This document shows, one piece after another, positions 1-14,210 of a stretch of DNA of 64,000 bases (position 1 is the first letter of the stretch; each line of letters begins with the position of its first letter). Below the pieces are notes generated by a model. That model saw only the letters and a program-made list of their open reading frames with translations. It was not told the DNA's origin and made no database searches. Origin of the DNA: Raineyella sp. W15-4 (GTDB lineage Bacteria; Actinomycetota; Actinomycetes; Propionibacteriales; Propionibacteriaceae); the NCBI RefSeq assembly GCF_033170155.1, contig NZ_CP137079.1, forward strand, positions 124,001 through 188,000, given 5' to 3'. The translations under genes and the position numbers were made by a program.

Positions 1-1632
1 GCCGACCTGCTCGATGCCGGTCGCCGGCCCGCTCCGGTCGCCCACCGGCTGCTGGAGCGGGTGCTGCGCGACTTCCGCCGCTCCGGGGTCGACCGCGACG
101 AGGCGACCCGGGCCCGGCTGCGGGAACTCGACAGCCGCCAGGTAGACCTCGGCCAGCAGCTGAGCCGAACGATCCGCGCCGACGTACGGTCGGTCCGGGT
201 GACACCGGCGCAGCTCGCCGGGCTGCCGGCGGACTGGGTCGCCGCCCATCCGGCCGCCGCGGACGGGCTGGTCACCGTGACCACCGACTACCCCGACGCG
301 GTGCCCTTCTTCACCTTCGCCCGCGACGCGGCGGCCCGCCGGGCGCTGCGGATCGAGTTCCTCAACCGCGGCTGGCCCGACAACGACGCGGTGCTGCAGG
401 AGCTGTTCGCGGTGCGGCGGGAGGTCGCCGGACTGCTCGGCTACGCCGACTGGCCGGACTACGCGTCGGAGGTGATGATGATCGGCACTGGCGAGGCCAT
501 TCCCGCCTTCATCGACCGGATCGCCGATCTGGCGCTGGAGCCGGGCCGGCGGGACCGCGCGGTGCTGCTCGATCGGCTGCGCCGCGACGTCCCCGGGGCG
601 ACCTCGATCGACGTCGCCGACGTGGCCTACTATGCCGAGCTGGTCCGCCGGGAGCGGTTCGACGTGGACGCCCAGCAGGTCCGCCACTACTTCGACGTCG
701 GCAAGGTCCGCCGCGGTCTGCTCGACGTCACCGGCCGGCTCTTCGGCCTGACGTACCTGCCGGTCGACCCGGCCGAGGCCCAGGCCTGGCACCCGGAGGT
801 GGCGACGTACGACGTCCACCGGCGGCTGCCGGGCTCGGATCGACCGGGGGAGCGGATCGGCCGGATCCACCTGGACCTGCACCCGCGGGACGGCAAGTAC
901 AAGCATGCCGCCCAGTTCACCCTCGCCGAGGGCGTCCGCGACCGCCGGCTCCCCGAGGGGGTGCTGGTCTGCAACTTCCCCCGCGGCCTGATGCAACACG
1001 ACGAAGTGGTGACGCTGTTCCACGAGTTCGGCCACCTGGTGCACCACGTGCTCGGCGGCCGCTCGGAGTGGGTCAGGTTCTCCGGCGTCGCCACCGAATG
1101 GGACTTCGTCGAGGCGCCCAGTCAACTGCTGGAGGAGTGGGCCTGGGACCCGGCGGTGCTGGCGACCTTCGCGACCGACGAGGCCGGCGAGCCGATCCCG
1201 GCCGACCTGGTCGAGCGGATGCGCCGGGCCGAGGACTTCGGCAAGGGCTACCACGCCCGCACCCAGATGTTCTACGCCGCCCTGGCGTACGACCTGCACG
1301 CGCACGAGGTCCCCGACCTGACCGCCCGGGTGGAGGAGCTGCAGGGGCGCTACTCGCTGTTCCCCTATCTGGCGGGCACTCACTTCCACTGCAACTTCGG
1401 CCACCTCGACGGCTACTCCAGCGGCTACTACACGTACGCCTGGTCCCAGGTGATCGCCAAGGACCTGTTCTCCGCGTTCGATCCCGATGACCTGTTCGAG
1501 CCGACGGTCGCCGCCCGCTACCGCGACACCATCCTGGCCCGCGGCGGGGAGAAGGACGCCGCCGACCTGGCCGAGGACTTCCTCGGCCGCCCGTCGACCT
1601 TCGACGCGTACGCCGCCTGGCTGGCGCGGTAG
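1..1632 (+). CDS. M3 family oligopeptidase, 5'-truncated by the window edge
   Basis: Zinc metallopeptidase of the thimet oligopeptidase/oligopeptidase A type, which cleaves short peptides in the cytoplasm. The reading frame is open from base 1, so the true start lies upstream and the N-terminal part is missing. The zinc motif HEFGH lies at about 1021-1035, in the context FHEFGHLVHH that is typical of M3. A downstream segment, FSGVATEWDFVEAPSQLLEE, supplies the usual third ligand glutamate region. The C-terminal GYSSGYYTYAWSQVIAKDLF block is also characteristic of M3. The gene ends 10 bases before the RecQ start, suggesting co-transcription. The family call is firm; substrate specificity cannot be read from the sequence. 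Confidence 0.93.
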   Translation, partial: ADLLDAGRRPAPVAHRLLERVLRDFRRSGVDRDEATRARLRELDSRQVDLGQQLSRTIRADVRSVRVTPAQLAGLPADWVAAHPAAADGLVTVTTDYPDAVPFFTFARDAAARRALRIEFLNRGWPDNDAVLQELFAVRREVAGLLGYADWPDYASEVMMIGTGEAIPAFIDRIADLALEPGRRDRAVLLDRLRRDVPGATSIDVADVAYYAELVRRERFDVDAQQVRHYFDVGKVRRGLLDVTGRLFGLTYLPVDPAEAQAWHPEVATYDVHRRLPGSDRPGERIGRIHLDLHPRDGKYKHAAQFTLAEGVRDRRLPEGVLVCNFPRGLMQHDEVVTLFHEFGHLVHHVLGGRSEWVRFSGVATEWDFVEAPSQLLEEWAWDPAVLATFATDEAGEPIPADLVERMRRAEDFGKGYHARTQMFYAALAYDLHAHEVPDLTARVEELQGRYSLFPYLAGTHFHCNFGHLDGYSSGYYTYAWSQVIAKDLFSAFDPDDLFEPTVAARYRDTILARGGEKDAADLAEDFLGRPSTFDAYAAWLAR

Positions 1633-1642
1633 GGCGGGGCCG

Positions 1643-3871
1643 ATGACGCTGCGTGACGAGGCTCGGACGATCCTGCGTGACCTGACCGGGGTGCCGGGGG
1701 CGGACTTCCGTGACGGCCAGTTCGAGGCGATCGAGGCGCTGGTCGCCGACCGGCGCCGCGCCCTGGTGGTGCAACGCACCGGGTGGGGCAAGTCCGCGGT
1801 CTACTTCGTCTCCTGCCTGCTGCGTCGTCGCCAGGGTGCGGGTGCCACCGTCATCGTCTCGCCACTGCTGGCGCTGATGCGCGACCAGCTCGCCGCGGCG
1901 GAGCGGGCCGGCATCCGGGCGGCGGCGATCAACTCGGCGAACGTCACCGAGTGGGACGAGACCATCGCGGCGGTGCATGCGGGCGACGTCGACCTGCTGC
2001 TGATTTCCCCGGAGCGGCTCACCAACCCGCGGTTCCGGGAGACGGTGCTGCCGTCGCTGATCGCCGACCTGGGTCTGCTGGTCATCGACGAGGCCCACTG
2101 CATCTCCGACTGGGGCCACGACTTACGCCCCGACTACCGGCGGATCCGCGACCTGATTGCCCGGCTCCCCGACGGGGTGCCGACCCTGGCTACGACGGCC
2201 ACCGCGAACAGCCGGGTGATCACCGACGTCGCCGAGCAACTGGGCGTACGCCTTCAGCCGGGCGCCGCGCCGGTGAGTTCCACCGTGTCGGCCCCTTCGG
2301 TGTCGGCCCCCTCCATGCCCGCCCCATCGGTGCCGGGCTCCTCCGTATCGTCCGACGACGTGTTCGTCGTCCGCGGTCCGCTCGCCCGGGACTCGCTGCG
2401 GCTGGGCGTGCTGCAACTGCCGACCTCCCGGCACCGCCTCGGCTGGCTGCTGGCCCACCTCGATGACCTGCCGGGCAGCGGCATCATCTACGCGCTCACC
2501 GTGTCCGCTGCCGAGGACACGGCACGACTGCTCGCCGCGCACGGCCACCGGGTCCGCGCCTACACCGGCCGTACCGATCCCGCCGAACGGGAGGCGGCCG
2601 AGCAGGCGCTGAAGACCAACGCGGTGAAGGCGCTGGTCGCCACCAGCGCGCTCGGGATGGGGTTCGACAAGCCCGACCTGGGGTTCGTCGTGCACCTCGG
2701 GGCGCCCTCGTCTCCGGTTGCGTACTACCAGCAGGTCGGTCGCGCGGGCCGTGCGGTGGAGACCGCCGACGTACTGATGCTCCCTGGGCCCGAGGACCGC
2801 GATATCTGGCAGTACTTCGCCTCCGCCTCGATGCCCAGCCAGGCAAAGGCGTCCGCGGTGCTGTCGGCGCTGGCCGAGGCCGGCCGGCCGCTGTCGGTCG
2901 CCGCGCTGGAGGCGCGGGTGGACATCCGGCGGACGCCGCTGGAGCTGCTGCTGAAGGTGCTCGCCGTGGACGGCGCGGCCGAGAAGGTCGACCGGGGCTG
3001 GACGACCACCGGTGTGCCGTGGACGTACGACGCCGAGCGGTATGGCCGGATCGCCGCGGCCCGTGCCGCCGAGCAGCAGGCGATGCTGGAGTACGAACGG
3101 GGCGGCACCTGCCGGATGGAGTTCCTCACCGACCAGCTCGACGATCCGCAGGCCCGGCCGTGTGGCCGCTGCGACGTCTGCCTGGCGGGGGCGGGGGAGC
3201 AGCCCTGGTATCCGGCGGATGTCCCCGAGGCGTTCCTCCAGGTGGCCGGTGCGCAACTCGACCATGTCGGGGTGCCGATCGAGGCGCGGCGCCAGTGGCC
3301 CTCGGGGATGGACCGGCTCGGCGTCGCGGTGAAGGGCCGGATCCCCGCCGACGAGGCGGTGGAGGAGGGCAGGGCCGTCGCCCGTCTGACCGACCTCGGC
3401 CACGGCCGGGCGCTGCGTGACCTGTTCGCACCGGACACCGACGGCCACCCGGTCGACCGGCCGCTGCCGGCCGTGCTGGCCCAGGCCTGCATCCGGGTGC
3501 TGGCCGGCTGGGACTGGGCCGTACGTCCCGCCGGGGTGATCGGGGTCGGGACGCTCGGTCGACCGCGACTCGTCGCTTCGACCGTCTCCGGGCTGGCCCA
3601 GGTGGGTCGGCTGACCGACCTGGGGCTGCTCCCGCTGCGCCCCGGCGCCGGACCCACGACGGCGGGCAACAGTGCCTTCCGGCTGGCCTCGCTGTGGGAC
3701 CGCTGGGAGGTGCCCGACGAGCTCGCGGAACGCCTGACGGGTCTGGACGGTCCCGTCCTGCTGGTTGACGACCTGGTCGACTCCCGCTGGACGATGGCGG
3801 TCGCCGGGCGACTGCTGCGCCGGGCCGGCGCGCCCGCAGTGCTGCCGCTGGCTCTGGGTATTGCGGGCTGA
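1643..3871 (+). CDS. RecQ-family ATP-dependent DNA helicase with C-terminal phosphoribosyltransferase-like domain
   Basis: A 742-residue superfamily 2 helicase of the RecQ type, expected to unwind DNA 3' to 5' in repair. Seen: a Walker A variant RTGWGKS at residues 45-51 (RecQ proteins usually have TGGGKS), the DEAH box at 149-152 followed by CISDWGHDLRPDY, helicase motif VI QVGRAGR, and a RecQ zinc-binding subdomain with Cys490, Cys507, Cys510 and Cys513. After this, instead of an HRDC domain, there are about 200 residues ending in VLLVDDLVDSRWTM (about 704-717), which matches the PRPP-binding loop of type I phosphoribosyltransferases. The ATG at 1643 is chosen because the longer open frame would overlap the peptidase by about 150 bases. 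Similar long RecQ-like proteins occur in Actinobacteria. Confidence 0.9.
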   Translation: MTLRDEARTILRDLTGVPGADFRDGQFEAIEALVADRRRALVVQRTGWGKSAVYFVSCLLRRRQGAGATVIVSPLLALMRDQLAAAERAGIRAAAINSANVTEWDETIAAVHAGDVDLLLISPERLTNPRFRETVLPSLIADLGLLVIDEAHCISDWGHDLRPDYRRIRDLIARLPDGVPTLATTATANSRVITDVAEQLGVRLQPGAAPVSSTVSAPSVSAPSMPAPSVPGSSVSSDDVFVVRGPLARDSLRLGVLQLPTSRHRLGWLLAHLDDLPGSGIIYALTVSAAEDTARLLAAHGHRVRAYTGRTDPAEREAAEQALKTNAVKALVATSALGMGFDKPDLGFVVHLGAPSSPVAYYQQVGRAGRAVETADVLMLPGPEDRDIWQYFASASMPSQAKASAVLSALAEAGRPLSVAALEARVDIRRTPLELLLKVLAVDGAAEKVDRGWTTTGVPWTYDAERYGRIAAARAAEQQAMLEYERGGTCRMEFLTDQLDDPQARPCGRCDVCLAGAGEQPWYPADVPEAFLQVAGAQLDHVGVPIEARRQWPSGMDRLGVAVKGRIPADEAVEEGRAVARLTDLGHGRALRDLFAPDTDGHPVDRPLPAVLAQACIRVLAGWDWAVRPAGVIGVGTLGRPRLVASTVSGLAQVGRLTDLGLLPLRPGAGPTTAGNSAFRLASLWDRWEVPDELAERLTGLDGPVLLVDDLVDSRWTMAVAGRLLRRAGAPAVLPLALGIAG

Positions 3872-3956: not shown

Positions 3957-5432
3957 TCAGGCGGCGGTGGGTAGCTCAATGTCGAAGAGGCGTTGTACGC
4001 AGTCGTGGAGGCGGAAGCCCTCACCGGCCTGGGGCGGGAAGACCCGGTCCGGCTGTTCGGCTGCGGCCCGAGCCGCGGCCTGCACGATCGTCTCGACCTG
4101 GTCGGGATCGGGGGCCTCGCCGGTGCGGATGGTACGTCCGTCGGGCAGGGTGAACACCCACGCTCCCGGACGACCGGTCAGCTCCACGGCGCCCTCGTGC
4201 ACGTACGTGTGGTGGGCCTGGCACAGCAAGATCAGGTTGTCCAGATCGGTCGGCCCGCCGTCGGCCCAGTGCACGATGTGGTGCGCTTTCAGTCGTCGCC
4301 GCTGCCGACAGCCGGGGAACTGGCAGCTTCCGTCCCTGACCCGCAACGCGCGCCGCTGTGCGGGCGAGGCGAACCGTCTGGTCCGGCCCATGGCCAGCAC
4401 GTCCCCCTCGGCATCGGTGATCATCCCGACGACATCGCCGTCACAGGCGTGCCGGGCCGCGGTCGCCGCCTCGACCGGCCCACCGCGCTCGATCCACGCC
4501 TGTGACGCCCGCCGACTCGCCGACCCCGGTCCGGTTGTCGAGGCGATCGAGGTGTCCGACGTTCCCGCGGGAACGTCCTTGTCCGATTTCACCGACCAGT
4601 TCGGCCCTACCGCGCCGTTCGCGGTCGCTCCGGTGAGCGTCTCGACGCCGACATGGACCACCACTAGGTCCGGGTCGTCGACACAGGTCGTCGGGACCGC
4701 GTTCAGGTAGCCGCGGGCCACGTCGCGCAGTGCAGCCACCTGATCGATGACCGGCCGATCCGCCTGATTATCGCCGTCGTGGCCGTCGCCGTGGTTCTCG
4801 TCGGCCTGGTGGTCGTCGGGCGCGATCGGCTGGTCCGGGTGATCGTCCGGGCGGTCGAGGTGTCGGTCGGTCGCCGCCTCGAGAGCGCCGCGGACGACCG
4901 CGGCCTCTTCGGGCAGCATCCGGACACTGAGGGTGACCATGCCGTCGTCGGTCTCGCGCCACGACAGCCGGCGCCGCTCGACCTGGCCCAGATGCGTCCC
5001 GGTGTGCGCGCGGTAGGAGCGGACCGTGCGGGCCAGCTGGGAGGCGGTCTGGGCCCGGGCCAACTCGCACAGTTCGGCCTCCTCGACCCGACCGGCCAGC
5101 CGGGTCACCTCGCGGACCTTCGAATACGTCAGAACGCCCTCGGCGAACAACTCCGCCACCGTCGGCATGGAGCGCAGCGCCCGCGCGACCCGGACGTGCT
5201 CCCGCGCCGTTCCCGCACTCATCGAACACGCCCACCCCAGCCAGTGCGCGGACGAGGTGATCCCCTCGAACCAGGCCCACCCCGCGCCCGAGTCGAACTG
5301 CCCGACCAGCTCCAACAGCCGGGCATCACACCGTGCCTGCGCCGTCGCGGCGCCTTGGATCCCGATCCCCAGATCCTCCGCCTCCGGGCGCGGCAACCGA
5401 TCCGCATCGACGGCCTCCGACCAGTCCCACAT
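3957..5432 (-). CDS. DUF222 and HNH endonuclease domain protein (13E12 repeat family)
   Basis: A 491-residue protein starting MWDWSEAVDADRLPR. It has an N-terminal DUF222 helical domain and a C-terminal HNH nuclease domain with the core LKAHHIVHWADGGPTDLDN followed by CQAHHTYVHE. The family is multicopy in Actinobacteria, and its biological role is unresolved. The start at 5432 is preceded on the minus strand by a GGGGGG ribosome-binding stretch; the open frame continues upstream but only as antisense to the aldo/keto reductase. The linker between domains is low-complexity and rich in Asp and His (about residues 215-245). An exact 20-bp palindrome at 4558-4577 lies in frame and encodes DVPAGTS; its core recurs between plsC and the aldehyde dehydrogenase gene near 53.9 kb. 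Confidence 0.9.
   Translation of the reverse strand: MWDWSEAVDADRLPRPEAEDLGIGIQGAATAQARCDARLLELVGQFDSGAGWAWFEGITSSAHWLGWACSMSAGTAREHVRVARALRSMPTVAELFAEGVLTYSKVREVTRLAGRVEEAELCELARAQTASQLARTVRSYRAHTGTHLGQVERRRLSWRETDDGMVTLSVRMLPEEAAVVRGALEAATDRHLDRPDDHPDQPIAPDDHQADENHGDGHDGDNQADRPVIDQVAALRDVARGYLNAVPTTCVDDPDLVVVHVGVETLTGATANGAVGPNWSVKSDKDVPAGTSDTSIASTTGPGSASRRASQAWIERGGPVEAATAARHACDGDVVGMITDAEGDVLAMGRTRRFASPAQRRALRVRDGSCQFPGCRQRRRLKAHHIVHWADGGPTDLDNLILLCQAHHTYVHEGAVELTGRPGAWVFTLPDGRTIRTGEAPDPDQVETIVQAAARAAAEQPDRVFPPQAGEGFRLHDCVQRLFDIELPTAA
4558..4577. repeat. Perfect 20-bp palindrome inside the HNH gene
   Basis: The sequence is an exact palindrome with the core CGTTCCCGCGGGAACG. It lies in the coding frame of the DUF222/HNH gene. 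The same 16-bp core occurs twice more in this window, at 53859-53874 and 53884-53899. Confidence 0.8.
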
Positions 5433-5525
5433 GATCCCCCCAAACAAACAGATGTTCGATAGCAACAGTCTCCGCCAAGGCACTGACAGTCGCCCCACCC
5501 CCGTCGGCCGCGATGGACACCGGGC

Positions 5526-5531
5526 TAGGCT
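5526..5531 (+). promoter_or_regulatory. -10 element (TAGGCT) of a probable leaderless aldo/keto reductase transcript
   Basis: TAGGCT fits the actinobacterial TANNNT -10 consensus and lies 6 bases before the ATG at 5538. Transcription would then begin at or next to the start codon, consistent with the lack of a ribosome-binding site. Confidence 0.45.
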
Positions 5532-5537
5532 CACGAC

Positions 5538-6545
5538 ATGAAGTTCCGCTACCTCGGCAATTCCGGTCTGAAGATCTCCGAGATCACGTACGGCAACTGG
5601 CTCACCCACGGCTCGCAGGTGGAGAACGACACCGCCACCGCCTGTGTCCACGCCGCGCTGGACGCCGGCATCACCACCTTCGACACCGCCGACGTGTACG
5701 CCAACACGGCCGCGGAGAAGGTCCTCGGCGACGCCCTCCAGGGGCAGCGGCGCGAGTCGCTGGAGATCTTCACCAAGGTCTACTGGCCCACCGGCCCGAA
5801 GGGCCACAACGACGTCGGCCTGTCCCGCAAGCACATCCTGGAGTCGATCGACGGCTCGCTGCGGCGGCTGGGCACCGACTACGTCGACCTCTACCAGGCG
5901 CACCGCTACGACGTGGAGACGCCGCTGGAAGAGACCATGCAGGCCTTCGCCGACATCGTCCGGCAGGGCAAGGCCCTCTACATCGGGGTGTCCGAGTGGA
6001 CGGCCGGACAGCTCCGTGCCGGTCAGGAGCTGGCCTCCCAGCTGGGCTTCCGGATCATCAGCTCCCAGCCGCAGTACTCGATGCTGTGGCGGGTGATCGA
6101 GCCCGAGGTGATCCCCGCGTCCAAGGAGCTGGGCATCTCCCAGATCGTCTGGTCGCCGATGGCCCAGGGTGTGCTGAGCGGCAAGTACAAGCCGGGCCAG
6201 CCGGCCCCGGCGGGCAGCCGCGCCACCGACGAGAAGGGTGGCGCCGCGATGGTCCACCGCTTCCTCGACAACGAGCAGCTGGTCGAGCGGGTGCAGGGCC
6301 TGCAGCCGATCGCCGACGAGCTGGGCATCTCGATGGCGCAGCTGGCGATCGCCTGGGTGCTGCAGAACGACAATGTCGCGGCCGCCCTGGTCGGCGCCTC
6401 CCGTCCCGAGCAGATCACCCACAACGTCGCCGCGTCGGGGGTCACCATCCCGCCGGAACTGATGACCCGGATCGACGAGGTGCTCGGCGACGTCGTCGTC
6501 CGTGACCCGTCGCTGACCCGCGCCCCACAGGGCCGGCCGGCCTGA
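5538..6545 (+). CDS. Aldo/keto reductase
   Basis: A 335-residue NAD(P)H-dependent oxidoreductase with the TIM-barrel AKR fold, resembling the Kv-beta/YghZ branch (MKFRYLGNSGLKISEITYG at the N terminus). The catalytic tetrad is visible as Asp49, Tyr54, Lys80 and His122. The C-terminal cofactor segment is ALVGASRPEQITHN. These enzymes reduce aldehydes or ketones in the cytoplasm; the physiological substrate is unknown. It is divergent from the HNH gene and ends 32 bases before jetA, which has its own strong ribosome-binding site, so a functional link to the defence operon is not implied. Confidence 0.9.
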   Translation: MKFRYLGNSGLKISEITYGNWLTHGSQVENDTATACVHAALDAGITTFDTADVYANTAAEKVLGDALQGQRRESLEIFTKVYWPTGPKGHNDVGLSRKHILESIDGSLRRLGTDYVDLYQAHRYDVETPLEETMQAFADIVRQGKALYIGVSEWTAGQLRAGQELASQLGFRIISSQPQYSMLWRVIEPEVIPASKELGISQIVWSPMAQGVLSGKYKPGQPAPAGSRATDEKGGAAMVHRFLDNEQLVERVQGLQPIADELGISMAQLAIAWVLQNDNVAAALVGASRPEQITHNVAASGVTIPPELMTRIDEVLGDVVVRDPSLTRAPQGRPA

Positions 6546-6577
6546 CCTCGCGGGGTGGGCCGGCAGGAGGCACCGCG

Positions 6578-8050
6578 ATGACCACTGATCCGGTCGCGGC
6601 CACCGGGGCCGACCTTCGCCTGCTGCGCGACGCCGACCCAGGGCTGCGGCTGCTGCGCGCGGAGCTGATGCCGGTCGTCGTGGCGATCCTGGGGCGCCGC
6701 CTCACCGCCCCCACCAGGGTGCTGCCCGCGGTCGAGTTCACCGAGGCCGTCTCCGAGGATCTGGCCGAGCTGCGCAGCATCGGGTTCGACCTGCCCCGCA
6801 GTGCCGGGGAGTACGTGGCGTCGTGGGTCGGTGACGGTTTCCTGATCCGGCGCCCGACCGCCGACCGGGACGAGACAGTCGAACTGTCCGACGGCGCCCA
6901 GGCCGCCATCCGCTTCGTCCTGGGGGTGCAGCGCCCGCGCTCCTCGGTCACCTCGTCCCGGTTGTCCAACGTCTCCGATCTGCTGGCCCGGCTGGCGGTC
7001 GACACCGATCCGGAGCCGGAGAGCAGACTGGCCGCCCTGGAGGCGGAGCGGGCCGCGGTGGAGGCGCGGATCGAGCGGGTGCGGGCCGGCCATGCCGAGC
7101 AGCCGGACGACGCCACCTCCCGGGAGCGGTTGGAGGAGATCCTGCGCCTGGCCGGCGAGATCCCCGGGGATTTCGCGCGGGTGAGCGCCGACCTGGAACG
7201 GGTGAACCATGGGCTGCGCGAGCAGATCATCGCTCGGTCCGGGTCCCGGGGTGATGTCCTGGACGGGGTGTTCGCGGGGGTCGACCTGATCGAGCAGTCC
7301 GAATCGGGGCGGACCTTCGCGGCCTTCCACGCGCTGGTCCTGGATGCAGGGCGGGCGGCGGAGTTCGACGCCGCGGTGGAGGCCGTGCTGGCGCGCGCCT
7401 TCACCGGAACCATCCCCACGGACCAGCGGAGATTCCTGCGCGGGCTGCTCACCACCCTGCAGGACGAGAGCACCCAGGTCCGTCGCCAGATGACCGGCTT
7501 CTCGCGCAGCCTGCGCCGATTCGTGGAGTCGCGGGCACTCCAGGAACACCGGCGGCTGGCGGACGCCCTCCAGGAGGCCCAGGCGGCCGGCTTGACCGCC
7601 TTCGGCGTCGGACGGCCGTTCGACGAACTCGACATCCAGCTCGACCGCACCTCGTTCCCGCTGTCGACCATCGGATCCTGGACGCTGACCAATCCGGCCG
7701 ACCAGCGCACCGCCGATCCGGTCATCGAGCGGGCCAACGGGCTCCTGGACCTGGCTGCCCTCCGGCGGCAGGTCCGGGCCAGCGAGATCGACTTCGTCGA
7801 GCTCCGGGCGGCCGTCGCCGCCACGATGGAGCACCTCGCCGTCGCGTCGGTCGGCGCCGTCCTGTCCGAGCATCCCGCCACCCAGGGGTTGGCATCGGTG
7901 GTCGGCCTGCTCGTCCTCGCGTCGCAGTACGGCCTGGTCTCCTCCGGGGACGAGCGGCTGCGATGGCGGACCGGTGACGGAACCACCCGGACTGTCAGTG
8001 TCCGGCGGTACGTTTTCTCCGAGGTCCCCGAGAGCTGGAGCCGACGATGA
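6578..8050 (+). CDS. jetA: Wadjet type I component JetA (MksF/MukF-like kleisin, DUF3375)
   Basis: A 490-residue DUF3375 protein, the kleisin-like subunit of the JetABC SMC complex. Seen: an N-terminal winged-helix-like region (LLRAELMPVVVAILGRR), a central helical region rich in Glu, Arg and Ala (about 145-230), and a C-terminal FEEVP-like end, here FSEVPESWSRR. In Wadjet systems this subunit bridges the JetC heads and binds JetB. The start at 6578 has an AGGAGG box 8 bases upstream. The stop overlaps the jetB start (ATGA), and all four genes form one tightly overlapped operon. The assignment rests on the family signature and on the exact four-gene order. Confidence 0.9.
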   Translation: MTTDPVAATGADLRLLRDADPGLRLLRAELMPVVVAILGRRLTAPTRVLPAVEFTEAVSEDLAELRSIGFDLPRSAGEYVASWVGDGFLIRRPTADRDETVELSDGAQAAIRFVLGVQRPRSSVTSSRLSNVSDLLARLAVDTDPEPESRLAALEAERAAVEARIERVRAGHAEQPDDATSRERLEEILRLAGEIPGDFARVSADLERVNHGLREQIIARSGSRGDVLDGVFAGVDLIEQSESGRTFAAFHALVLDAGRAAEFDAAVEAVLARAFTGTIPTDQRRFLRGLLTTLQDESTQVRRQMTGFSRSLRRFVESRALQEHRRLADALQEAQAAGLTAFGVGRPFDELDIQLDRTSFPLSTIGSWTLTNPADQRTADPVIERANGLLDLAALRRQVRASEIDFVELRAAVAATMEHLAVASVGAVLSEHPATQGLASVVGLLVLASQYGLVSSGDERLRWRTGDGTTRTVSVRRYVFSEVPESWSRR

Positions 8051-8769
8051 CCGAGCGTACGACCCCGCGCCGGGCATACCCCGACGAGATGCCGGGTGCG
8101 CCTGCCCCCGACCGCCCCACCGAGCCCACTGCGCCGACGTCGGCGCTGTTCGAGGGGGACGCCGGGGAGCTGCCCGAGGACGTCCGACGGGTCCTCGTGC
8201 TGCTCCTGCAGGGCCCGTTCGTGAGCCGCGACAGCCACCCCCGCCCGTGGGCCACTCTGCTCGGTCACGAGGAGGTTGTCCGGTCCCGGCTGGGTGACCT
8301 GTTCCTCGAGCTGGTGCTGGATCGCGACCGCGGGTTGGGCTTCATCCGCAAGGTCACTGCTCCGGAGCTCGACGTCCCCGGCGTCGTCCGGAGCAATCGC
8401 CTCACCCTGATCGACACCGCGCTGGTGCTGCATCTGCGGGAGCTGCTGCTGCGCGCCGAATCGGACGAGCTGCGGGTGATCGTCGGGCGCGACGAGCTCA
8501 CCGAGGTCCTCGCCGTCTACCAGCCGCTGACCGGCACGAACCGGGCCGGCTACGAGAACCGGATCCAGGCGTCGGTCGAGAAGCTGAAGCGGTCCTCGGT
8601 CCTGCGCAGCACCAAGGAACCGGACCGCTACGAGGTCTCACCCATCCTCGGGCTGGTGTTCGGGGCCGACGAGGTGATCGCCGTCACCCGAGAGCTCCGG
8701 CGTTTCGCGGCCGAGGCAGCCGCAGGCCCCGCCGGAGGAGTCACCGCCGCCGATGAGGAGGCCGGATGA
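8047..8769 (+). CDS. jetB: Wadjet type I component JetB (MksE/MukE-like, DUF4194)
   Basis: A 240-residue DUF4194 protein, the KITE subunit of the Wadjet SMC complex. An acidic, proline-rich N-terminal tail of about 35 residues is followed by a winged-helix domain (ELPEDVRRVLVLLLQGPFVSR) and a region SVEKLKRSSVLRSTKEPDRYEVSPIL that resembles MukE-type second winged helices. It binds the JetA kleisin and DNA. It is translationally coupled to jetA (4-base overlap) and to jetC (ATGA at 8766-8769). The protein would be hard to assign alone; its place between DUF3375 and an SMC-like ATPase makes the call secure. Confidence 0.88.
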   Translation: MTERTTPRRAYPDEMPGAPAPDRPTEPTAPTSALFEGDAGELPEDVRRVLVLLLQGPFVSRDSHPRPWATLLGHEEVVRSRLGDLFLELVLDRDRGLGFIRKVTAPELDVPGVVRSNRLTLIDTALVLHLRELLLRAESDELRVIVGRDELTEVLAVYQPLTGTNRAGYENRIQASVEKLKRSSVLRSTKEPDRYEVSPILGLVFGADEVIAVTRELRRFAAEAAAGPAGGVTAADEEAG

Positions 8770-11700
8770 GTGTCGCAGCGCCGGGACAGCACCGGCTGGC
8801 GCGGATTCAGGTGGTCAACTGGGGCACCTTCCAGGGGGCGTTCGGCATCGATGTGCCCAGGGACGGGATGCTGATCACCGGGCCGTCGGGGTCCGGCAAG
8901 TCGTCGTTGCTGGACGCGTTGTCCGCGGTGCTGGTCCCGCCTCGCTGGCTCGCATTCAACGCCGCCGCGCAGGAGGGCGGCAGCGCCGACCGGTCCCGCA
9001 GCCTGGTGTCATACGTCCGCGGTGCCTACCGGCGGGAGGCCGACGACGTCACCGGAGAGGTGACCACGGCCTACCTGCGCGACGGAGCCACCTGGAGCGG
9101 GATCGCGTTGACGTTCGACGACAGCACCCGGCTGACGACCCTGATCCGGCTGTTCCACCTGGCCCGCGGCGCGAATGCCATGGACGATCTGGCCTCCCTG
9201 CTGGTGATCGCCGACGGTCCGGTCGAGCTGCTCTCGTTGCAGGACCTGGTCGCCAACGGACTCGAGTTGCGCCGGCTCCGGTCGCGCCACGCTGACTGGG
9301 ACGTCTTCACGCGCTACTCCGCCTTCGCCGCGCGCGTCCAGCGCCGCCTCGGACTCGCCTCGGACCAGGCCCAGCGGCTGCTACACAAGACCCAGTCGGC
9401 CAAGAACCTGAACAGTCTCGACACCCTGCTGCGCGATTTCATGCTCGACGAGCCGGACACCTTCGACCTGGCAGACCAGGCGGTCGCGCAGTTCGGCGAG
9501 CTGACTGCGGCCCACGCGAGTGTGGTGGACGCGCGCCGCCAGGTCGAGACGCTGCTACCGCTGGAGGCCATCGGCACGGAACTGGCCCGCCTCGAGACGG
9601 AGACGGAGTCGCTCACCCGGCAGCTCGACCACCTGCCGGTCTTCGAGCAGCGCACCCGGCTCGATCGGGCGCGCGACGACGCCCGGCAGAAGACCGGCCT
9701 CCTGCGGGGGCTCGAACGGGAGCTGGCGCAGGCCACTGCGGCGTCGACGTCCGCCCAGGAGGAGCGGGACGCCTGGAACCAGCGCCTGCTGGGCGCGGGC
9801 GGGGCGGAACTCGCCACCCTGGCCGCGTCCATCCGCGCCGAGCGGGACCTGTGGGAGCAGCGTCGCCGGCGGCGGGACAGCATGGCACCGGTCGCGGAGC
9901 GGGCGGGGCTGTCGCTCGCCGCCGACGCCGAGGAGCACGCGCGGCTCCAGCAGGAGGCGGAACGCCGTGGCCGGCAGGTGGACGCCGACCGCGAGTCCCG
10001 GCGGGCCGCGGGCTATGAGCTGGTCCGGGCCAAGCACGAGGCCGACGCCCGGGTCCGGGTGATCCAGGAGGACCTCAAGGTCCTGCTGGCCCAGCAGTCC
10101 AACCTCGAGCCGCACCTGCTGCGCGTACGGGCCCTGCTCACCGATCGGCTCGGTCTCACCCGGGAGACGCTGCCGTTCGCCGGCGAGCTGATCGACGTCC
10201 GCGAGGAGGCGTCGGACTGGGCCGGCGCGATCGAGCGGGTGCTGCGGCCGCTGGCCCGTACGCTGCTGGTGCCGGACGGGCAGTACGCCGCGGTGGCTGA
10301 GCTGGTCGACACCACCCAGCTGGGCACCCGGTTGGTCTACGAGCGGATCCCCGCTGATGTCGCGGCGCCCGACGGGGCCCCCTCCGATCCTCGGTCGCTG
10401 GTCAGGAAGGTGATGCTGCAGCCGGGGCCGTGGGCGCACTGGCTGGCCGGCGAACTGCTCCGCCGCTACGACTACGCGTGTGTGGAGACGATCCCCGAAC
10501 TGGTCCGCGCGCCCCGCGCCGTGACCCGCGCCGGTCAGATCAAACACTCCGCGACCAGGCACGAGAAGGACGACCGGCGCCCGATCGACGATCGGCGCTC
10601 CTGGGTGCTCGGCTTCTCCACGGCGGCGAAGGAGACCCGGCTGCGGGAGACGCTCCGGGAGGCGGCCACCACCGCTGCCGATGCCGACCAGGCCCTGCGG
10701 GCCGATGAGGACTCCCGCGACGCGATCGGGGCGATGGCGGCGGCACTGGCCGAGCTGCGTCGCCTCGCCTGGGAGGAGATCGACACCGGTCAGCCGCGCC
10801 GCCGGCTCGATGACCTGGTCCGGCGCCAGGACGTCGTCCGCGCGGCGGCCTCCGGTCTCGGGGACATCGAGGCTCGGCTCGCGGCCGCGACGCAGGCGTA
10901 CGCGGAGGCCGAGGAGACCCGTCGACGGCTGCAGTCCCGCAGGGACCGTACGGCCGGGGACCTCGACGACCTCCGGTCCACCATCGCCCGTCTGGAGGAG
11001 CGACTGGCCGCCCAGCCGGACGTGCCGGACGAGGCCGGCCACACCCTGTCTGCGTTGTTCGCCGAGGAGTGGGAGCGGGTCGGCACCGGGCCGGCGGTGC
11101 CGGAGGCCCCGCTCCGGGAGGCGTTCCAGGCCGTCGAGCGACGCCTCCGGGACGCCCTGGCCCAGCGGGAGAAGCGTCGCCAGGATGCGGGACGGCGCAG
11201 TGAGCGGACCATGCAGACCTACAAGACGAATTGGCCCGCCCAGGCCGCGGAACTCGCCATCCGGATCGACTTCCTGCCGGACTATCTCGCCATCCTGGCC
11301 GGCCTGCGCGCCGACCGGCTGCCCGAGTTCGAGGAGCGCTTCTTCGACCTGCTGCAGAGCCAGTCGCGCAACAACATCGGCAATCTGTCCCTGCGGATCA
11401 CCATGGCGCGACGGAAGGTCCGCGAACGGATCGATCCGATCAACACGTCGCTGGCGGGCACCGAATACGCGCCGGGCCGTCACCTGCAGGTGAAGGTGGA
11501 CGACCGGCGCGTCCCGGAGCTCACCGAGTTCCTGGGTGCGCTCGGTCGGATCACCGCGGGCTCGATCGAGGACACCCTCGGCGCCGACGACTCGACGGCC
11601 GGGCGGCAGCAGGCGGAGGAGCGGTTCCTGGAGATGCAGCGGATCCTCAGCCGGCTGTCCTCGACCGAGGCGCCGGACCGGCGCTGGCGCGCGCAGTGCC

Positions 11701-12212
11701 TGGACACTCGGCTGCATGTCGAGTTCACCGCCGTGGTCCAGGACACCGACGGCAGGCCCGTCGACTACTACACCGGCGCCGGTGGACTGTCGGGTGGAGA
11801 ACGGCAGAAGCTGGTGGTCTTCTGCCTGGCCGCCGCCCTCCGCTACCAGCTGGCCCGGGAGGGCGCCGACCAACCGCAGTACGGTCTGGTGGTCCTCGAC
11901 GAGGCGTTCGACAAGACCGACCCGGAGTTCACCAGGGCGGGGCTGGAGGTGTTCCGCACCTTCGGCTTCCAGCTGCTCCTCGCCACGCCGATGAAGATGC
12001 TCCAGACGCTCGAGGACTACGTCGGGGGGACCACGCTGGTGCTGATGGACCCGTCACATCACTCCCACCTCGAGGTGATGCGGTTCGACCTCGAGGAGTC
12101 GGCCGAGGCGCCGACCGACCCGGCCGAGGTGCCCGGCACCGGGGCTGCCCCGGGCGTGCCCGCGGATCGGGAGCCACCCGTGCGCCAGCCGGCGGAACCG
12201 GGGCTGTGGTGA
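8766..12212 (+). CDS. jetC: Wadjet type I SMC-like ATPase JetC (MksB/MukB-like)
   Basis: A 1148-residue SMC-like ATPase, the motor of the Wadjet complex. By family knowledge it extrudes DNA loops and presents small circular DNA to the JetD nuclease. Seen: Walker A GPSGSGKSS at 39-47; ABC signature LSGGERQK near 1006; Walker B LVVLDEAFDKTDPEF near 1041-1055, followed by the H-loop region LLLATPMKML. Between them lie about 700 residues of heptad-rich Glu/Arg/Ala sequence, interrupted around residues 465-600 by a non-coiled segment that probably forms the hinge. Length and motif order match MukB-family proteins rather than SbcC. Its stop overlaps the jetD start. Confidence 0.93.
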   Translation: MSVAAPGQHRLARIQVVNWGTFQGAFGIDVPRDGMLITGPSGSGKSSLLDALSAVLVPPRWLAFNAAAQEGGSADRSRSLVSYVRGAYRREADDVTGEVTTAYLRDGATWSGIALTFDDSTRLTTLIRLFHLARGANAMDDLASLLVIADGPVELLSLQDLVANGLELRRLRSRHADWDVFTRYSAFAARVQRRLGLASDQAQRLLHKTQSAKNLNSLDTLLRDFMLDEPDTFDLADQAVAQFGELTAAHASVVDARRQVETLLPLEAIGTELARLETETESLTRQLDHLPVFEQRTRLDRARDDARQKTGLLRGLERELAQATAASTSAQEERDAWNQRLLGAGGAELATLAASIRAERDLWEQRRRRRDSMAPVAERAGLSLAADAEEHARLQQEAERRGRQVDADRESRRAAGYELVRAKHEADARVRVIQEDLKVLLAQQSNLEPHLLRVRALLTDRLGLTRETLPFAGELIDVREEASDWAGAIERVLRPLARTLLVPDGQYAAVAELVDTTQLGTRLVYERIPADVAAPDGAPSDPRSLVRKVMLQPGPWAHWLAGELLRRYDYACVETIPELVRAPRAVTRAGQIKHSATRHEKDDRRPIDDRRSWVLGFSTAAKETRLRETLREAATTAADADQALRADEDSRDAIGAMAAALAELRRLAWEEIDTGQPRRRLDDLVRRQDVVRAAASGLGDIEARLAAATQAYAEAEETRRRLQSRRDRTAGDLDDLRSTIARLEERLAAQPDVPDEAGHTLSALFAEEWERVGTGPAVPEAPLREAFQAVERRLRDALAQREKRRQDAGRRSERTMQTYKTNWPAQAAELAIRIDFLPDYLAILAGLRADRLPEFEERFFDLLQSQSRNNIGNLSLRITMARRKVRERIDPINTSLAGTEYAPGRHLQVKVDDRRVPELTEFLGALGRITAGSIEDTLGADDSTAGRQQAEERFLEMQRILSRLSSTEAPDRRWRAQCLDTRLHVEFTAVVQDTDGRPVDYYTGAGGLSGGERQKLVVFCLAAALRYQLAREGADQPQYGLVVLDEAFDKTDPEFTRAGLEVFRTFGFQLLLATPMKMLQTLEDYVGGTTLVLMDPSHHSHLEVMRFDLEESAEAPTDPAEVPGTGAAPGVPADREPPVRQPAEPGLW

Positions 12213-13396
12213 GGTCGCCCGAGGAGTTCCGCGCCTGGGCGACATCGGCATGGGGCCGCCGGTTCCGCAACGAACTCGCGGTCGCTGATTCCGCCGGTGA
12301 GCATCCGTGGTCATGGTCGCTGAGACCTCCCACGGAGAGCGAGGCGGCCCGGGACACCACCGCCGTCGCTTCCTGGGTCGCCCGGTGGCGCCGGGACGAG
12401 GGGCGGCTTCCTGGCGGCGTCCGGGTCGACTGGGTGGTGCGACGCTGGCGCAGCCTCGGCGCTCAGCGTCTCCCGATCCGGGTGCAGGGCGAGGATTTCG
12501 CCGGGCTGGCCGCTGTCGCCGGTCACCGCCAGGACTGGGATCGGGGCACCCACGCCGTGGCTGTCTTGCGCCGGCGCTGTGCGGGGGAGGCCTCACCCGG
12601 GGTCGTGACGCCGCTCGATGCGGCGATCCGACGGCATGGGCGGGCCCTCGTCGGACTCGACCGGGCGGACCTGTCGCGGTTGGTCGACGTCGTGGACTGG
12701 TTCGTCGCCCATCCCGACTCCGGACTCTTCGACCGGGAGCTGCCCGTCAACGGCCTCGACACGAAATGGCTGGAACACCACCGCACGCTGGTCTCGGACC
12801 TGGTGGCGGCGGTCGGTGGCCCGGCGGACCTGGGGCTCAGAGCCCGCGCCCGGCCGTTCGCCGTCCGGTTCCTCGATGCCACGCTGGCGCCCGGGGCACT
12901 GCGCGACTTCGCCGCGCCGGTGGACGAGCTGGACCGTCTCGCCGTACGGCCGTCGGTGGTCTGGATGGTCGAGAATCTGACCACCCTGCACGCGTTCCCG
13001 ATGCTCGAGGACGCCGTGGCGGTCCACGGCGGCGGATACCGGGTGGCGGAGCTGGCCGGCGTCGGCTGGATCCGTGCCGCCCGGGTCGTCTACTGGGGCG
13101 ATCTCGACACCCACGGCTTCGCCATCCTGTCGCGGTTGCGGCAGCATCTTCCCCAGGTGGAGTCGGTCCTGATGGACAGCGCCACGCTGGCGGCACATGC
13201 ACACCTGGCCGGCACCGAACCGCGGCCGGTCCGTGGAGAGATCACCCACCTGACCTTCACTGAACGCCAGGCGCTGGCGGCCCTGCGGGACGGTGATCGC
13301 CGCCTGGAGCAGGAACGCATCCCCTGGCCGTACGCCACCGACCGGCTCGCCGGCTCAGCACGTGCCCCGAGCGACCGGCTCGGACCGGCTCGATAG
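12209..13396 (+). CDS. jetD: Wadjet type I nuclease JetD (MksG; DUF3322 plus DUF2220)
   Basis: A 395-residue protein made of a DUF3322 N-terminal domain and a DUF2220 Toprim-like nuclease domain. It is the subunit that cuts the plasmid DNA in Wadjet systems. The Toprim acidic residues are visible as Glu255 (in WMVEN) and Asp298/Asp300 (in VYWGDLDTHGF), so the active site looks intact. The GTG at 12209 overlaps the jetC stop as GTGA; GTG 12206 is an equally possible start one codon upstream. The open frame extends far into jetC but only as an out-of-frame shadow. The gene ends 19 bases from the convergent protease gene, closing the operon. Confidence 0.9.
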   Translation: MRSPEEFRAWATSAWGRRFRNELAVADSAGEHPWSWSLRPPTESEAARDTTAVASWVARWRRDEGRLPGGVRVDWVVRRWRSLGAQRLPIRVQGEDFAGLAAVAGHRQDWDRGTHAVAVLRRRCAGEASPGVVTPLDAAIRRHGRALVGLDRADLSRLVDVVDWFVAHPDSGLFDRELPVNGLDTKWLEHHRTLVSDLVAAVGGPADLGLRARARPFAVRFLDATLAPGALRDFAAPVDELDRLAVRPSVVWMVENLTTLHAFPMLEDAVAVHGGGYRVAELAGVGWIRAARVVYWGDLDTHGFAILSRLRQHLPQVESVLMDSATLAAHAHLAGTEPRPVRGEITHLTFTERQALAALRDGDRRLEQERIPWPYATDRLAGSARAPSDRLGPAR

Positions 13397-13415: not shown

Positions 13416-14210
13416 TCAGCCGACGACGGATGCCACCCAGGCCACGGTCTCGTCGGTGAAGAGGGTCGATTCGGTGTCCCAGTCGCTGGTGCCGCCGTCA
13501 TCGGGCCCGCCGATCACCCCGTGCACCACACCGTCGGCGGTGTACCACGGGGAGCCGCTGGTCCCGTCGGGCAGATCGCAGGACTCCACCGCCGCCCCGT
13601 CGGACCGTACGGTCACCGCGAGGTCGTCGCAACCGGTGAGCCGGTCGGTGGTCTGCGGATAGCCCCAGATCGACACCGTGCTGCCGTCGGCCGGCGCGGT
13701 GCCGACGGTGAAGCCGCCGCCGACGGCCTGCTCGATGTCGCCGTCGACCTGCAGCAGTGCCAGGTCGAGGGTGGCCGGGTCGGGGTCGAGCTTCCATTGC
13801 GGGGTGACCCGGTCGACCACTGTCCAGGTCCGTCCCGCAGCATCGAGGGCGTCCGGGGTGTCACAGTGGGCGGCGGTCAACAGCCAGGAGCCGCTGGGAG
13901 TGTCGAGCACCTCGGCGGTGCAGGTGGACGGCACGATCCAGGCGTGCATGTCCTGCAGCGTCGGGCCGGGCGTGGCGGCGGTCAATCCGGGCACCGAACT
14001 TGCGACGCCGTCGATTGTGCTGCCGTCGGTCGGAGTGTCGCCGGCCGGGGAGACGGGTGTCGCAATGGTCGTGCTGCCGACGGTCGGGCCCAGCAGCCGG
14101 ACGAGGAAGTGTGCGTGGGCAACGGCCGGCACCAGGTACGCAGCGCAGGCCAGAGCGATCCCCGTCGCCGCGGTGGCGAGCACGCGCCTGCGGGTCCTGC
14201 CCCTCGTCAC
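13416..14210 (-). CDS. Secreted trypsin-like (S1 family) serine protease
   Basis: A 264-residue protein with an Arg-rich N terminus and a hydrophobic segment at residues 11-33 (signal peptide or anchor), then a linker rich in Thr, Ser and Pro up to about residue 85. The chymotrypsin-fold catalytic triad is visible: His115 in LLTAAHC, Asp149 in PATLDLALL, and Ser218 in DGTSGSPWY. The Asp-Ser of the usual GDSGSP motif is replaced by Thr-Ser. Two cysteine pairs (97/116 and 194/211) could form disulfides. It is likely exported and degrades or processes extracytoplasmic protein. Upstream lies a three-unit 16-bp tandem repeat (14296-14343). No adjacent partner gene reveals the substrate. Confidence 0.85.
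   Translation of the reverse strand: MTRGRTRRRVLATAATGIALACAAYLVPAVAHAHFLVRLLGPTVGSTTIATPVSPAGDTPTDGSTIDGVASSVPGLTAATPGPTLQDMHAWIVPSTCTAEVLDTPSGSWLLTAAHCDTPDALDAAGRTWTVVDRVTPQWKLDPDPATLDLALLQVDGDIEQAVGGGFTVGTAPADGSTVSIWGYPQTTDRLTGCDDLAVTVRSDGAAVESCDLPDGTSGSPWYTADGVVHGVIGGPDDGGTSDWDTESTLFTDETVAWVASVVG

Follow-up and report, generated by a model that had tools for sequence, protein, structure and literature searches.

A complete, probably active type I Wadjet operon in Raineyella sp. W15-4, with a second, JetD-less jetABC locus in the same genome

Type I Wadjet systems (JetABCD, also MksFEBG) are presented in passages of PMC10586767 and PMC10123090 as a JetABC motor that acts on a closed DNA circle, followed by cutting by JetD. 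The described systems with which the locus reported here is compared are MksBEFG of Corynebacterium glutamicum, the solved Jet systems and the Wadjet I of Stenotrophomonas maltophilia, JetD-less Wadjet I being already known from Stenotrophomonas according to part of PMC11680222. The DNA analyzed here, a 64,000-nucleotide stretch of the genome of Raineyella sp. W15-4 (the window, to which coordinates refer unless prefixed by another contig or locus name), contains, at 6578-13396, what is predicted, with a probability of about 0.93, to be a complete type I Wadjet operon that cuts small circular plasmids. Taken alone, this operon is an ordinary, further member of the known Wadjet type I and represents one more probable plasmid barrier in a propionibacterial lineage; it is the genome-level setting, rather than the operon itself, that deserves a second look.

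As proposed in an earlier, sequence-only reading of this DNA, the four genes (Table 1) lie on the same strand in the canonical order jetA-jetB-jetC-jetD, with successive genes overlapping by 4 bases (ATGA at 8047-8050, ATGA at 8766-8769 and GTGA at 12209-12212), and the domain order DUF3375-DUF4194-SMC-DUF3322/JetD_C within a single operon is the one by which Wadjet type I is recognized. All four frames are full-length and contain no internal stops. The comparison suggested in that reading, with PF11855, PF13835, PF13558, PF11795 and PF09983, yielded matches of all four proteins to their named profiles, and the motifs it had listed were located: Walker A (GPSGSGKSS, residues 39-47), the signature (LSGGERQK, 1008-1015) and Walker B (LVVLDEAFD, 1041-1049) of the JetC ATPase are all intact, and JetD has E255, D298 and D300, along with E367/E369. 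Of the NCBIfam profiles, none matches JetA, JetB or JetD, and those that match JetC do so weakly, below the cut-off. Because the four proteins match their named profiles and every listed motif is present, a complete, probably active Wadjet I is the best-supported reading.

By sequence, the window JetC matches the solved JetC 8as8 (3.7e-72 over residues 9-1092), JetA matches the solved JetA chains (3.4e-21), and JetD matches both the solved MksG 8b7f, with the E and DxD aligned, and the solved JetD 8q72 (1.5e-12). The E255 and D298 residues of JetD align with E236 and D279 of MksG (MksG numbers being chain numbers minus a constant 106), and the alanine mutants of these two MksG residues are described in a passage of PMC10123090 as drastically impaired in nuclease activity. 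Among the 74 other JetDs compared, E255, D298 and D300 are invariant in all 73 relatives with letters at these sites, and E367 and E369 are conserved in all 71 relatives with letters there. Two observations weigh against a complete, active system, namely, that the window JetB resembles the solved JetBs weakly (8dk1, 8.1e-07) and that there is no promoter-sized gap upstream of jetA. Because only 33 bp separate the stop of the reductase gene from the start of jetA, the latter is likely to be expressed by read-through from the reductase gene.

If the window proteins work as the literature describes, JetA (kleisin), JetB (KITE) and JetC (SMC-like ATPase) would form a dimeric loop-extruding motor that, on a small closed circle, would reel in the entire molecule and pass the circle to JetD. 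This Toprim nuclease would then make a double-strand cut, with the chromosome and large circles being spared.

The kinship of the window JetC was traced in a set of 96 genomes of relatives, own genome included, and in a locus set of 108 that consists of the best 80 of 525 confirmed named loci (those nearest to the window JetC), 26 loci of the relatives, a second locus of the same genome and the window itself. Three loci were dropped from the tree, namely, L094 (identical to L069), L097 (a near-copy of L072, with 99.1% identity over 14.7 kb, and with jetD) and L166 (whose contig ends at jetC), so that the tree, built with FastTree, a program that warns of long branches here, includes 105 JetCs. 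The window JetC belongs to a 16-row clade that is starred at 100 and in which jetD is present in all 16 rows; 15 of these rows, including the window, come from Propionibacteriaceae, and one is a metagenome-assembled genome labeled Intrasporangiaceae. Among plasmid records, 16 relatives were found, one of which spans 80% or more of the query at a single place, and none of the 102 candidate stretches scanned in viral contigs was confirmed as a relative.

Table 1. Coordinates and profile matches of the window operon, its surroundings and the second jetABC locus
Feature	Position	Strand	Properties
jetA	6578..8050	+	490 amino acids, ATG start; DUF3375, MukF/MksF-like kleisin; PF11855 3.2e-129; PADLOC JetA1 1e-168
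jetB	8047..8769	+	240 amino acids; DUF4194, MukE/MksE-like KITE subunit; PF13835 1.9e-39; PADLOC JetB1 2.3e-67
jetC	8766..12212	+	1148 amino acids; SMC-like ATPase; SbcC_Walker_B 3e-24, AAA_29 9.5e-24; PADLOC JetC1 E=0 (1226 bits)
jetD	12209..13396	+	395 amino acids, GTG start at 12209; Toprim nuclease; PF11795 (DUF3322) 3.1e-38, PF09983 (JetD_C) 2.6e-43; PADLOC JetD1 3e-114
Left neighbor, aldo/keto reductase	5538..6545	+	Pfam 5.4e-72; orthologues in the congeners G001-G003, 89-92% identity; left edge of species-specific block
Right neighbor, trypsin-like protease, convergent	13416..14210	-	Trypsin_2 2.1e-06; right edge of block
DUF222/HNH frame	3957-6422, domains ~4200-5350	-	DUF222 8.3e-16, HNH 3.3e-8; between helicase and reductase
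Second jetABC	L004 4781-10384; G000 C1 ~504.8-510.4 kb		DUF3375, DUF4194, SMC-like ATPase; best PADLOC models JetA1, JetB1, JetC1

The genome that carries the window (G000, one contig of 3,962,933 bases) encodes a second jetABC, which was found by searching this genome with the window JetC (two matches, one frame, C1:506985-510380). It is flanked by the genes for NAD-glutamate dehydrogenase and enoyl-CoA hydratase, the latter being the next gene after jetC. No jetD was detected in the 19-kb locus by phmmer or with a hidden Markov model of 15 JetDs, and a PF09983 search of the own genome gave one match only, the window JetD. The second JetC shares 28% identity with that of the window and has intact Walker A, signature and Walker B, and the JetB of this locus matches DUF4194 only, with E up to 0.001, the Pfam MksE model being not matched. 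The second jetABC is a long-diverged copy of the Wadjet motor in which the nuclease is missing.

The two loci are distributed differently among the four Raineyella genomes searched (label g1). Within this set, the window operon is restricted to this species: searches of the genomes of the three congeners (G001, G002 and G003) gave no JetD_C match and no window-type JetC or JetA. The second locus is present in three of the four genomes (G000, G001 and G003), with the same start of the hydratase gene following it in G001 and G003; neither JetC nor JetA is matched in G002. Given that G001 and G003 possess the second jetABC but no JetD_C match, the motor has been retained in two congeners whose genomes lack any match to JetD_C. 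The second jetABC is under purifying selection: in near-full-length comparisons with G003 and G001, the ratio of nonsynonymous to synonymous substitution rates (dN/dS, Nei-Gojobori) lies at 0.13-0.20, with one 70-residue JetA block at 0.06 against G001, which is similar to the 0.17-0.19 of a single control gene, the aldo/keto reductase. The JetA of the G001 locus (L063 10767-12221 plus upstream) comes out as two blocks that overlap, possibly as a result of a frameshift or an assembly error.

In the relatives' set, JetC matches were obtained in 28 of the 96 genomes, and removal of three short fragments (G028, G042 and G088) leaves 25 genomes with 28 loci, in which jetD adjoins the other genes in 16 cases and is absent in 12. 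Nine of the 12 genomes with a JetD-less locus contain no JetD_C match at all, and in the other three (G000, G038 and G092) the match belongs to another jetABC. In G041, a further JetD_C match, a weak one (2.7e-8), lies at a large distance from jetABC (C1:1973444-1973896) and may belong to a different type of Wadjet or to a related Toprim protein. Among the best 80 of the 525 named loci, 79 were judged and 18 of these, many of them near-copies, lack jetD; they come from Stenotrophomonas and kin, Xanthomonas, Brevibacterium and Actinomyces, and JetD_C was matched in none of the 12 whole-searched genomes of those 18, the completeness of these genomes being not stated. On the tree, 30 of the 105 JetC rows are JetD-less, and this label needs at least 12 changes, a count that does not distinguish gains from losses.

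All 30 JetD-less JetCs keep G39, G44, K45, S46, S1009, G1010, G1011, D1045 and E1046, and the 74 JetD-bearing JetCs (the window excepted) keep the same nine sites, save for T instead of S46 in two. Since there is no decay at the ATPase sites, although it would be expected if these complexes were dead, the JetD-less jetABC complexes look like working motors, not wrecks. A shared replacement effector downstream of jetC was considered and rejected: in the few of the 30 JetD-less loci that were profiled, the first gene differs between loci (enoyl-CoA hydratase in Raineyella, arginyl-tRNA synthetase in L059, a TauE-type exporter in L141), and no common nuclease was seen. In L066 12101-16248 (G070), SbcD and SbcC, which likewise make up an SMC-like motor with a nuclease, are encoded directly after the JetD-less jetABC, as either chance neighbors or partners. 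The N-terminal LF/LW-x-x-D motif of JetB, tried as a potential contact with JetD, is absent from the second locus of Raineyella, but it occurs in many JetD-less loci and is missing, by pattern, from many JetD-bearing ones, and so does not discriminate. The tblastn matches of JetD-holding stop-to-stop frames in JetD-less loci turned out to be, by position, frames overlapping jetC, not JetD.

The genomic setting of these motors includes the apparent lack of SMC-ScpAB, the complex that ordinarily folds bacterial chromosomes. No match to ScpA (PF02616) was obtained in 12 of the 96 genomes, own included, and none to ScpB (PF04079) in 10; the SMC hinge (PF06470) is matched in 85 genomes, above the cut-off in 82. 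The hinge matches in Raineyella are only weak (6e-4 to 9e-4) and coincide with the second JetC in the three genomes that have it (G000, G001 and G003); the G003 match exceeds the cut-off only when counted with its neighbors in frame. All three markers, that is, ScpA, ScpB and a canonical hinge, are missing in 10 of the 96 genomes, in a survey in which MukBEF was not searched for. These genomes, from three genera of the family, are the four Raineyella (G000-G003), three of g4 and three of g14 (the latter six being G006, G029, G048, G016, G037 and G054). The markers disagree in G005 and G046 (no ScpA, a hinge and a sub-cut-off ScpB match) and in G010, G013, G018 and G047 (no hinge, with ScpA and ScpB present), and G044 has fragments. 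Among the listed titles and abstract openings on SMC/ScpAB in Propionibacterium/Cutibacterium and on SMC loss, none describes a loss of SMC-ScpAB from this family, a result that speaks only weakly for novelty.

Of the 10 SMC-ScpAB-less genomes, 5 carry JetABC, versus 20 of the 86 others. In G001 and G003 it is JetD-less, in G006 and G048 it comes with JetD and in G000 both kinds coexist; the other five (G002, G016, G029, G037 and G054) have no JetC or JetA match. With five such genomes devoid of JetABC, the proposal that SMC loss drives JetABC retention is suggestive at best and was set aside. In a search of the family, JetA was matched in 57 of 198 genomes, including three of the four g1 genomes and, among the matches listed, four of at least five g4 genomes (one in two pieces) and none of g14. 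Against this background, it is possible, although less likely than not, that Wadjet I motors repeatedly shed the nuclease and persist as active, nuclease-free housekeeping SMC complexes, in which case the JetD-less JetABC of Raineyella would be a chromosome condensin residing beside a recently acquired plasmid-policing Wadjet. A limit on such a role is set by G002: because it lacks both SMC-ScpAB and JetABC, a condensin function of JetABC cannot be generally essential. If this scenario were true, a defense system would here be seen in the midst of its conversion to chromosome maintenance. A review (passage in PMC10586767) regards the question of where Wadjet came from as unsettled and considers Wadjet a tempting ancestor for MukBEF and likely also for MksBEF; a genome with a complete JetABCD, a selected JetD-less JetABC and SMC-ScpAB not found is a natural place to test the origin of MukBEF/MksBEF.

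For the window operon itself, several other interpretations have been considered. With jetD missing from many jetABC loci of this family, the operon could be decaying or silent, but direct support for this is nil, and four full-length, overlapping frames without an internal stop and with all catalytic residues in place make this reading highly unlikely. JetABC also resembles MukBEF/MksBEF, and some SMC-like complex might be wanted in a genome that matches neither ScpA nor ScpB and lacks a canonical SMC hinge, so the operon could encode a chromosome-organizing, MksBEF-type condensin in which JetD is minor or regulatory. However, the catalytic residues of JetD are all present and invariant among relatives, the absence of the operon in three congeners shows that its function is not core to the genus, and the MksBEFG of C. 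glutamicum makes no contribution to chromosome folding according to a passage of PMC7083940; the condensin interpretation of the window operon therefore appears scarcely plausible. Slightly less far-fetched, but still improbable, is the sharing of the window JetD with the second JetABC in trans, such that two sensors would serve one nuclease, as the single JetD_C match versus two jetABC loci in this genome might suggest. Yet two congeners without any JetD_C match retain the second jetABC, the divergence of the two JetCs is deep, at only 28% identity, and the second JetB lacks an LFxGD-like N-terminal motif, although the presence of this motif was no guide to whether a locus bears JetD.

As a predicted plasmid-cutting Wadjet I, the window operon occupies a junction that varies within the genus. 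The DNA alignments with the congeners end at 6545-6547, and that with G001 restarts from 13416. G001 is collinear at 82.6% over 6.5 kb as far as the end of the reductase gene, and the alignment picks up again at the protease; instead of Wadjet, the interval holds a hemerythrin/ScdA-type gene and a short-chain dehydrogenase gene. The gene beside the reductase gene encodes a family-1 glycosidase in G003 and is of the BrkB type in G002. Given the absence of the operon in the three congeners searched, it was probably gained horizontally, at the species level, at this variable junction, its loss in the three congeners instead being a possible alternative. The G+C content does not set the operon apart from its surroundings (0.716-0.726 in the operon bins, 0.694-0.732 in the left flank).

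Upstream of the operon are genes for an M3 peptidase, a RecQ-type helicase and the aldo/keto reductase, and the seven downstream proteins scanned include the trypsin-like protease, glyoxalase-like, AraC, CmpB-like, TetR and radical-SAM proteins and one open reading frame without a match; no integrase, transposase or phage genes are found among the flank proteins scanned. The previous claim that no mobile element borders the operon holds for the immediate neighbors and the downstream proteins scanned, but has to be qualified for the DUF222/HNH frame beyond the left neighbor, which is possibly of a repeat family: the DUF222 and HNH pair occurs in the 13E12 repeat family, often taken to be mobile. 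Because DNA alignment places this stretch also in G001, which has no Wadjet at that place, it appears unconnected with the operon. The helicase (1487-3871, plus strand) scores 4e-194 against the PADLOC PsyrT model and is more likely to be a chromosomal relative of RecQ than a toxin.

Among the known systems, the actinobacterial MksBEFG of C. glutamicum, a Wadjet I, shares with the window operon the gene order (mksFEBG as jetABCD), and its MksG matches the window JetD at 6.7e-45, with the E, the DxD and the EQE pair aligned. The sequences of the two systems have diverged, and the C. glutamicum genome, used as a control, matches ScpA, ScpB and the SMC hinge, whereas the window genome matches none of these except for one sub-cut-off hinge match in the second JetC. 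The solved Jet systems (8dk1-8dk3; 7til) match the window JetA, JetB, JetC and JetD by sequence, but are remote (JetB 8e-07) and from another phylum. For the second locus, the only counterpart found in the literature on JetD-less, incomplete or MksG-less systems is that of PMC11680222, in passages of which the JetD-less Wadjet I of S. maltophilia is reported as the more frequent variant, with jetABC proteins >95% conserved on average, and called probably inactive by the authors, a complete Wadjet variant being located in another island of four strains. As in that variant, jetA, jetB and jetC are kept and jetD is absent in the second locus of Raineyella; unlike the S. maltophilia variant, which adjoins RecBCD, the second locus lies between the two metabolic genes named above and is under purifying selection.

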